NCBI GenBank assembly: GCA_003242085.1
Contig: QBML01000004.1
Location: forward strand, 62,001 to 126,000
Direction of reading: 5' to 3'
DNA length: 64,000 nt
DNA from: Pseudanabaena frigida
GTDB lineage: Bacteria > Cyanobacteriota > Cyanobacteriia > Pseudanabaenales > Pseudanabaenaceae
The notes below the pieces were generated by a model, which was not told the origin of the DNA, made no database searches, and worked only from the letters and a program-made list of their open reading frames with translations. Positions 61,763 to 64,000 of the stretch are shown here, piece after piece (the first letter of the stretch is position 1; every line of letters begins with the position of its first letter). Made by a program: the position numbers and the translations under genes.

Positions 61763-64000
61763 ATGACTTCAATCGAACAAACCCACCCCACATTTTTACT
61801 CGTTGACGGACATTCCCTTGCGTTTCGTGCATTTTATGCCTTTGGTAAACATCCAGAAGGCGGCTTGCGAACCTCGACAGGAATCCCCACTAGCATTTGT
61901 TTTGGCTTCTTGAAAGCATTAATAGAGATGCTTGATCGCGAAAAACCCACTGCCGTAGCGATCGCTTTTGACCTCGCTACACCGACATTTCGCCATGAGA
62001 TTGACGATACTTACAAGGCAAATCGTTCGGAAACCCCTGAAAGTTTTATTCCCGATATCCAGAACTTACAGAAAGTATTAGCTGCGATGAATCTGCCAGC
62101 GATTACTCAGGCTGGTTTTGAGGCGGATGATGTGTTGGGGACGTTATCTCAGGCGGCGAGTGCTGAGGGTTACACGGTGAAGATTTTAAGCGGCGATCGC
62201 GATTTATTTCAGCTAATTGATGCAGATAAGCGAATTTCGGTGTTGAACATCGGACAAAAAGACAAGATTGTTGAATATCACGCCGATCAGGTAAAAGAGA
62301 GATTGGGGGTATTGCCTACACAAGTAGTAGACTATAAGGCACTCTGCGGTGATGCTTCGGATAATATTCCTGGGGTGCGCGGTATTGGTGAGAAGACCGC
62401 AATTAAACTAATAGAAGAATATGGCAACTTAGAGAATGTTTTAGCAGCATTGCCGAAAATGAAGGGAGCCGTTAAAACTAAACTGGAGCAGGGGATTGAA
62501 GCTGCTAGACATTCTCAGTTTATGGCGACAATTAAAACTGATGTACCGCTTCCGATCGCGATCGCTGATTGTCAATTAACAGGTTTTGATACCACAGAGT
62601 TAATTCCTTTATTGGAAGAGCTTGAGCTTAAAGCTTTTGTGAATAGGGTTGATCAGATTCAGGCAAAGTTGTCAGGGAATTATGAGAAGAAGCCCTCACC
62701 CCCAGCCCCTCTCCCAAAGGGCGAGGGGAGCAAGATGTCGGCTCAGAATGTAGAAGACGAGGAGTTGTGGTTTGATTTTGCTAAGCAGGAAACTGATCAG
62801 GCGATCGCAGCGACCGCTTCGTTAAAACTGGATGTGCAGATTATCGACACGATCACCAAATTAGAAAAGTTGTGCGAAACTCTTAGTAGCAAACAACCGA
62901 CGGCTTGGGATACGGAAACATCGGCACTAAATCCCTTTGAAGCGGAATTAGTGGGAATTGGTTGCTGTTGGGGTGACTCGATTAGTGAGATTGCTTATAT
63001 CCCTTTGAGTCATAATTCAGGACAAAATCTGCAATGGGAAGAGGTGAGAGAAATTCTTAAGCCTATTCTTGAAGATGCTAGTTATCCGAAATACTTACAG
63101 AATGCTAAGTTCGATCGCTTAATGTTTAAGGCGGCAGGAATTGAACTTGCAGGTGTGGTATTCGATACGATGATTGCTAGTTATGCGATCGATCCAGAGG
63201 CAAGTCATAAACTGGATGATTTGGCGATGGAATTGCTACAAATTCGTACTGTCAGTTATAAAACGCTAGTTGGTAAGCGCAAATCGATCGCCGAAGTTGA
63301 GATTCCATTGGTAGCTCAGTATTGCGGTATGGATACCTATATCACCTATCACATTAGACCGATTTTACAAGAGCAATTAACTGCGGTTCCCGAACTTTGG
63401 GATTTGTTCCACAATGTGGAGATGCCTTTAGAACCAATCCTTGCGGAAATGGAATGGCGTGGTATTAGGATCGATAAAGAATATTTAAGTATTTTCTCGC
63501 AGGAATTAGAAAAAGATTTAGATGCTTTAGAGATTGCTGCCCATCAACAAGCAGGAAAGAAATTTAATCTTAATTCACCTAAGCAGTTGAGTGAAATTTT
63601 AGAAGAAAAGCTCGGCAAAAAATTTACTGATAAATCACGCAAAAGCAAGACAGGCTATTCTACTGATGTTACTGTTCTTAACAAATTGGAAGGTGAAGAT
63701 CCTCTGATTGACACGATCCTCGAAAACCGTACCCTTGCGAAGCTTAAGTCTACTTATGTTGATGCTTTACCATCGCTGATTCAGCCTAAGACTGGGCGCG
63801 TGCATACTGATTTTAATCAAACTGTCGCTTCGACTGGGCGTTTGAGTAGTTCTAATCCTAACTTGCAAAATATTCCCATTCGGACAGCATTTAGTAAGCG
63901 CATTAGAGCAGGTTTCTTACCTGAAGAAGGTTGGATACTGATGGCGGCTGATTATTCGCAAATTGAACTGCGAATTCTTGCCCACTTGAGCCAAGAGCCT
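61763..64000 (+). CDS. polA: DNA polymerase I, partial at the window end
   Basis: 746 codons are visible. The N-terminal 5'-3' exonuclease (VDGHSLAFRAFYAF, EADDVLGTL, GDASDNIPGVRGIG) is followed by a linker carrying a repeat-encoded peptide. A 3'-5' exonuclease domain keeps its acidic residues (DTET, NAKFD, YCGMD), so proofreading is probable. The polymerase domain runs to motif A (DYSQIELRILAHLSQEP), where the window stops. Used in repair and Okazaki-fragment processing. Confidence 0.96.
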   Translation, partial: MTSIEQTHPTFLLVDGHSLAFRAFYAFGKHPEGGLRTSTGIPTSICFGFLKALIEMLDREKPTAVAIAFDLATPTFRHEIDDTYKANRSETPESFIPDIQNLQKVLAAMNLPAITQAGFEADDVLGTLSQAASAEGYTVKILSGDRDLFQLIDADKRISVLNIGQKDKIVEYHADQVKERLGVLPTQVVDYKALCGDASDNIPGVRGIGEKTAIKLIEEYGNLENVLAALPKMKGAVKTKLEQGIEAARHSQFMATIKTDVPLPIAIADCQLTGFDTTELIPLLEELELKAFVNRVDQIQAKLSGNYEKKPSPPAPLPKGEGSKMSAQNVEDEELWFDFAKQETDQAIAATASLKLDVQIIDTITKLEKLCETLSSKQPTAWDTETSALNPFEAELVGIGCCWGDSISEIAYIPLSHNSGQNLQWEEVREILKPILEDASYPKYLQNAKFDRLMFKAAGIELAGVVFDTMIASYAIDPEASHKLDDLAMELLQIRTVSYKTLVGKRKSIAEVEIPLVAQYCGMDTYITYHIRPILQEQLTAVPELWDLFHNVEMPLEPILAEMEWRGIRIDKEYLSIFSQELEKDLDALEIAAHQQAGKKFNLNSPKQLSEILEEKLGKKFTDKSRKSKTGYSTDVTVLNKLEGEDPLIDTILENRTLAKLKSTYVDALPSLIQPKTGRVHTDFNQTVASTGRLSSSNPNLQNIPIRTAFSKRIRAGFLPEEGWILMAADYSQIELRILAHLSQEP
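62693..62728. repeat. Palindromic repeat inside polA
   Basis: CCCTCACCCCCAGCCCCTC and the following bases form a C-rich then G-rich near-palindrome (62706-62715 with 62719-62728, loop AAA, one mismatch). In frame it encodes the PSPPAPLPKGEG stretch in the linker between the two exonuclease domains. This sequence type is, from memory, a widespread dispersed repeat in bacteria, often found between genes. Confidence 0.8.

Follow-up and report, generated by a model that had tools for sequence, protein, structure and literature searches.

The polA gene of Pseudanabaena frigida found at the end of the 64,000-nucleotide stretch analysed here (the window, taken from a 5.39 Mb genome) carries a near-palindromic DNA sequence within its reading frame, which raises the question of whether the encoded peptide arose as a protein linker or was brought in as a dispersed DNA repeat. 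The open reading frame and its Pfam matches identify the gene (positions 61763-64000, forward strand, cut by the window end) as DNA polymerase I, with the domains 5_3_exonuc_N, 5_3_exonuc, DNA_pol_A_exo1 and DNA_pol_A. The original prediction had placed a near-palindrome at 62693-62728, where it is indeed present, and the element proper runs from 62693 to 62734. Its 14 codons are translated in frame as PSPPAPLPKGEGSK and correspond to PolA residues 311-324, between 5_3_exonuc (residues 184-277) and the 3'-5' exonuclease domain DNA_pol_A_exo1 (residues 359-539), so that the Pfam borders agree with the predicted location of this low-complexity peptide in the linker between the two exonuclease domains.

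The element reads CCCTCACCCCCAGCCCCTCTCCC-AAA-GGGCGAGGGGAGCAAG on the forward strand and has three parts. The outer end, CCCTCACCCCCAG (62693-62705), lies outside the hairpin stem. The hairpin itself (62706-62728) has 10-bp arms, CCCCTCTCCC on the left (62706-62715) and GGGCGAGGGG on the right (62719-62728), which differ by a single T.C mismatch and enclose the loop AAA (62716-62718); the tail AGCAAG follows (62729-62734). Two bases are diagnostic, position 62703, which is C in the polA element and T in a sister subfamily described below, and position 62730, which is G in the polA element and A in the sister subfamily. As an RNA hairpin the sequence was not unusually stable (z = -0.47, with 57 of 200 shuffles of the same composition at least as stable), and the evidence for an in-frame palindromic element, here a half element of the CAG form, is therefore its repetition and comparison among genomes, not its fold.

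Within the window, the 36-mer of the polA element had one match with up to 3 mismatches, and none was expected from 100 shuffles. When the whole genome was searched with a 20-mer core, 11 copies with at most 1 mismatch were retrieved, compared to none for a reversed-pattern control, and these were found inside as well as outside long ORFs, which bore out the expectation that further copies would exist. Of the 10 exact copies, the 5 with the polA form all fell inside long ORFs and the 5 with the other form all fell outside them, according to the ORF criterion given below, and the eleventh copy, of the polA form with one mismatch (L012), lay within an ORF of 685 aa. The same core, again with up to 1 mismatch, was present in 26 of 26 Pseudanabaena genomes at 3 to 103 copies per genome (control, 0). 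One ORF of the source genome, encoding an nSTAND protein (L164), combined a full element with what appears to be another repeat family (SPPAPLKKGGEELNQVPLFKGDAEGRG).

Homologues of polA were detected in all 26 genomes of the genus, and inspection of the codon alignment by eye classed the element as intact in 14, decayed in 5 (G003, G005, G012, G039 and G040), reduced to a trace in 3 (G008, G010 and G016) and absent in 4 (G007, G011, G017 and G038). The comparison of close relatives with and without the insertion, as had been proposed, thus showed the element or its remains in 22 of the 26 genes; the insertion stands, although not as something special to this strain. Three of the genomes that lack the element, G007, G011 and G038, group in a single clade with strong support. 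A single early gain of the element in polA followed by losses is favoured, but not proved, because the root within the genus tree is not settled. No clear relation was apparent by eye between the number of potential donor copies and the presence of an intact polA copy. Two of the 26 polA copies (G001 and G009) carried a T at the diagnostic site, and the loop AAA was replaced by several different trinucleotides in other polA genes of the genus. Reverse-complement loop pairs do exist among these copies (AGT/ACT, ACA/TGT and AGA/TCT), but sister species did not consistently differ by inversion, so that pure loop inversion is a doubtful source of the variants. The intact element in polA of G015 (L053) harbours a further 24 nt, CCCTTCGACAGGCTCAGGGCAACG, nested in frame inside it. 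Outside the genus, the element was found in none of the 26 polA linkers shown from the 55 outgroup genomes searched, and these linkers likewise vary in length and composition; in another cyanobacterium, G030 (L145), the polA linker is expanded by a Ser/Pro/Gly-rich stretch, in an open frame of 1096 aa.

Whether the sequence is conserved as DNA or only as peptide was addressed by comparing four-fold degenerate third positions in the element with those in the rest of polA, using sets of 17 (picked by the peptide alone), 22 and 26 genomes. In the 17-genome set, third-position identity was 0.853 (1037/1216) in the element, as opposed to 0.515 elsewhere in polA; in 135 of 136 genome pairs the element scored higher than the remaining gene, and 1 of 624 other 13-codon windows equalled it. 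The 22-genome set yielded 0.825 vs 0.516, with 5 of 660 windows as high. The two best of these contain the site GCGATCGC, which we take to be HIP1, itself a DNA-level repeat, and the remaining windows ranking above that of the element start at codons 47-49. With all 26 genomes the contrast was weaker (0.779 vs 0.494; 11 of 672 windows as high). Conservation of the outer end, outside the stem, was about equal to that of the stem. A linker shared by all relatives but written in unrelated codons had been named in advance as the sign of a protein-level origin, and the opposite was observed, as relatives share the codons and not the peptide alone. Since the third positions of the element are far more conserved than those in the rest of polA, the polA insert originates at the DNA level, not at the protein level. 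Together with the other copies, these shared codons support the original prediction that polA has taken up a dispersed palindromic repeat, in frame, at a linker that tolerates extra residues.

We then classified 161 exact copies from the fetched genus loci, scoring a copy as genic, independently of any gene caller, when it lay within an ORF of 200 aa or more that extended at least 25 aa beyond it in both directions. Copies with CCCCAG, the form found in polA, formed part of the reading frame of a long ORF in 85 of 94 cases, compared to 11 of 67 for copies with CCCTAG, the sister subfamily (Fisher p = 1.5e-22). The general expectation that repeats of this type usually lie between genes is therefore reversed for the CAG subfamily in this genus. 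The TAG sample is dominated by G022 (38 of 67), with 5 copies from G000 and the rest being first matches or neighbours of other copies, whereas the CAG sample comprises 59 of the 60 places of G002, G003, G007, G012, G013, G017, G021 and G040 (the G013 polA copy was omitted), 6 in G001, 5 in G000, at least 17 in G022 and first matches elsewhere. The split held in G022 alone (genic CAG 14/17 vs TAG 4/38) and without G022 (71/77 vs 7/29). Exact CAG copies numbered from 3 to at least 17 per genome in the 11 genomes counted. The two forms also differed in the bases following the hairpin. In CAG copies these were AG 73 times and AA once, and in TAG copies AA 48 times and never AG, a tally that omits 20 CAG and 19 TAG copies with other or unreadable tails. 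Upstream of the element, the TAG copies had further bases in common, and the CAG copies far fewer. CAG copies occurred in both orientations and the genic ones used five of the six frames, GRGAGGEG being the commonest reading (45/85). Stop codons do not account for the scarcity of the CCCTAG form in genes, given that 4 of its 6 frames are open vs 5 of 6 for the CCCCAG form. As the sister form is nearly as open, survivorship alone cannot produce 85/94 vs 11/67.

The 96 genic copies grouped into 36 host clusters, 30 of which contained the CAG form, and all 30 were scanned against Pfam or NCBIfam. Eight of the 30 were repair genes, encoding UvrA, Mfd (a fragment, below the curated cut-off), MutL, LigA, RecJ, UvrC, a UvrD-like helicase and PolA. 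Another seven were restriction or putative methylase genes, namely a Type ISP enzyme, MmeI, four Eco57I-type enzymes and a DUF1156 protein, presumably a methylase, so that repair or DNA-modification genes together made up 15 of the 30 clusters. The others included MnmE, CobB, STAND, CHAT and NACHT proteins, a CoaBC-like protein, GH94, a glycosyltransferase, a GTPase, a helicase and a P-type ATPase, and three hosts (L233, L201 and L212) lacked any Pfam or NCBIfam match. Among the clusters with only the TAG form, five of the six were scanned and yielded neither repair nor restriction or methylase genes, one being without a match. The chance of finding 8 repair hosts in 30 was 1.0e-7, 2.1e-6 or 8.5e-5 for an assumed background share of 2, 3 or 5%, respectively; on such an assumed share, repair and methylase genes look over-represented among the hosts.

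Comparison of the host genes revealed that a full element contains two hairpins and that polA retains one half. From left to right end, most small elements spanned 89 to 120 nt (L163, 180) and most DUF559-containing inserts 435 to 632 nt, with borders set by pattern, for which the remainder of the lengths by three is inexact. Terminal inverted repeats are present, as in L149, which starts with CCTCACCCCCCAGCCCCC and finishes with GGGGCTGGGGGTGAGGG. Ends of the same kind border the small full elements and the DUF559 inserts, and in both the right end is mostly read as GRGAGGEG. In mutL, detected in 26 of 26 genomes, we recognized by eye the full two-hairpin element (G005, G013, G015, G017 and G022), the half element (G012, G018 and G019), degraded versions in other genomes and the empty site (G000, G006 and G016). 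The DUF1156 gene offered a similar series at one site, where 12 loci comprised 3 empty alleles (G060, G135 and G159), 1 with the hairpin only (G036), 4 bearing DUF559 (G022, G027, G041 and G057), 1 with a longer repeat-rich stretch (G123) and 3 in which the anchor was not located. No clear target-site duplication was visible by eye between empty and occupied mutL and DUF1156 sites, and the mutL target can hold CCCT. The ligA gene, detected in 25 of 26 genomes (L324-L348), carries a different, AT-richer in-frame palindrome of the type AATCAGGCAGATTTTGC-nnn-GCAAAATCTGCCTGAT in about 12 of the 25 genes, with a GAA loop in some species and TTC in others; by eye, this palindrome was not seen in G001, G002, G017, G021, G038, G039 and G040, and its left arm gives way to the C-rich element in G012, G015 and G022. 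Across polA, mutL and ligA, the element was lost or decayed in several species.

The DUF559 domain found between element ends is, we assume, a Vsr-like member of the PD-(D/E)XK nuclease fold class, and to our knowledge it is not a known transposase. Its identity as a nuclease is by homology only, a search of solved structures giving a single relative, an 'Endonuclease-Like Protein' (3hrl, E = 6.3e-17). DUF559 domains were encoded in 24 of 26 genomes of the genus and in 68 of 116 genomes of the class. The flanks of the best-scoring loci, 30 from the genus and 26 further ones from the class, were inspected after dropping 5 cut loci from each group. In ORFs of at least 500 aa, DUF559 had hairpin words to its left and to its right, no more than 200 bp away, in 11 of 17 genus loci and 7 of 8 class loci; in 18 of 25 loci the in-frame DUF559 insert was thus flanked by element ends, although in few distinct hosts. 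By eye, the 11 genus loci come from about 4 host genes and are therefore few as independent cases, and two of these hosts recur among the class loci. The density of hairpin words was 11.9 (genus) and 17.8 (class) per kb near DUF559 vs 0.56 and 0.88 per kb far from it. Among loci with shorter ORFs, such words flanked both sides in just 1 of 8 from the genus and 2 of 13 from the class, indicating that DUF559 is not tied to these ends. Among the 17 long-ORF genus loci, 5 lacked hairpin words on either side and 1 had them on one side only; four of those 5 were read, and in these another C-rich repeat flanks DUF559. At L278, L279, L281 and L296, DUF559 is embedded in long ORFs and flanked by a different C-rich repeat, with peptides like SPSLKGGGQELGGG. 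The MmeI gene contained one small element in G012 and G013 vs four elements plus DUF559 in G002, where DUF559 lies between complete elements. One trait of homing elements, an insert with DUF559, a nuclease by homology only, together with empty alleles, is present in the DUF1156 gene.

The explanation that we prefer, with a probability of about 0.6, is that a mobile palindromic element open to translation entered polA and that its surviving half became part of the polymerase. The complete element would have two hairpin ends and about 90-120 bp, open to translation in its genic frame, and would insert in frame and join the host protein. DUF559 lies between the hairpins in larger relatives that have these ends in common; by their appearance, small full elements would have arisen from such relatives through internal deletion, and half elements in turn from small full elements. 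The polA copy was probably gained early in the history of the genus, in the loop that separates the 5'-3' from the 3'-5' exonuclease domain, and would have been kept by most species, some half elements persisting as long as the genus; it may now be a neutral or mildly useful linker. Movement driven by DUF559 through cutting of the target DNA, at present or in the past, is an inference, as is the cause of the host bias. Tentatively, and with more doubt than confidence, hairpin-ended DUF559 nucleases might constitute a class of mobile elements built for translation, which enter genes in frame without splicing, prefer DNA repair and DNA modification genes and leave small palindromes as a lasting component of essential enzymes, PolA, UvrA, MutL and LigA among them.

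Other readings have to be weighed against this one. A conventional non-autonomous repeat of the MITE or REP type, mobilized by an unrelated transposase, could insert anywhere and be noticed where it survives in frame, DUF559 then being a captured passenger. The inverted-repeat ends and the many small copies fit such an element, as do the DUF559 domains found without hairpins or with other repeats and the one located between complete elements in the G002 MmeI gene, but it would be hard to reconcile with a sister subfamily that avoids genes in the same genomes though open in 4 of 6 frames, and with hosts in which repair and methylase genes look over-represented, on the assumed background share; we consider it unlikely, though still a serious competitor. 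Selection might instead have kept the genic copies for a function at the DNA level, such as an uptake-like sequence or a recombination or processing signal. Uptake sequences are frequent in genome-maintenance genes, and 8 of the 30 host clusters here are repair genes; moreover, third positions in polA are conserved, the HIP1 site behaves alike and the outer end is about as conserved as the stem it does not belong to. Against this, exact CAG copies are few (3 to at least 17 per genome in 11 genomes), they occur in both orientations and five reading frames, and in polA, mutL and ligA several species have lost the element or retain a decayed version, which makes a signal of this kind improbable. 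That the palindrome is a by-product of Pro and Gly codons in a proline-rich linker of protein-level origin is very improbable: low complexity, and outgroup linkers that vary in length and composition, speak for such a linker, but the same DNA is read in five frames, on both strands and in unrelated genes, its third positions are conserved, and empty alleles occur in other hosts.

Among known systems, the preferred reading of a translated mobile element is reminiscent of the Rickettsia palindromic elements (RPE), which the cited excerpt describes as palindromic mobile DNA found in frame in many unrelated protein genes and translated with the host (PMC10969869). The likeness lies in the in-frame palindrome within ORFs of unrelated genes, here 85 of 94 CAG copies in 30 host clusters. 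The differences, judged by description and not by sequence, are the cyanobacterial host, a sister subfamily that mostly avoids genes, a unit of about 40 nt (half) or about 90-120 nt instead of RPE families of about 150 bp, ends shared with DUF559 inserts, and a host list of which half are repair or DNA-modification clusters. The enterobacterial RU-1, RU-2 and RU-3 are, in the abstract of their description, small MITE-like repeats with open frames located in multiple intergenic regions and in some genes, and that abstract presents no nuclease-bearing form (PMC2759123). REPINs likewise combine two hairpins in inverted order into one unit with many copies. REPs, however, are extragenic by name and, in the excerpt cited, mostly belong to GTAG- or CGTC-tagged groups (PMC3733652), whereas the polA form is mostly genic (85/94) and the polA element contains neither the GTAG nor the CGTC word. 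Inteins, which according to an excerpt are found preferentially in proteins of replication, repair and recombination (PMC5874633), show a host bias similar to that seen here. Inteins and homing endonuclease genes also resemble the DUF559 inserts in being nuclease-bearing and in frame in conserved genes. Unlike inteins, the insert remains in the protein, its ends are palindromic repeats and small nuclease-less copies abound; no self-splicing (Hint) domain was listed in the host proteins scanned, and the polA insert has only 14 codons.

The titles and abstract openings among the literature matches listed contained nothing describing the Pseudanabaena repeat or DUF559 mobility, and by title none of the listed matches to the core words of the element dealt with bacterial repeats. 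In IMG/VR, the exact 21-mer was present in 27 contig stretches (L414-L440), and 11 of its 28 copies were within ORFs of at least 200 aa. These stretches have 48-70% G+C and few HIP1 sites, which suggests that the element family is not confined to cyanobacteria.

In-frame mobile palindromes are best known from Rickettsia, and here they are found in a free-living cyanobacterial genus, with an unexpected list of hosts that includes uvrA, uvrC, mfd, mutL, ligA, recJ, polA, a UvrD-like helicase gene and restriction enzymes. Since a mostly genic and a mostly non-genic sister subfamily coexist in the same genomes, the question of what determines the landing place of such elements becomes directly testable, and the link to DUF559 offers a candidate engine for their movement.
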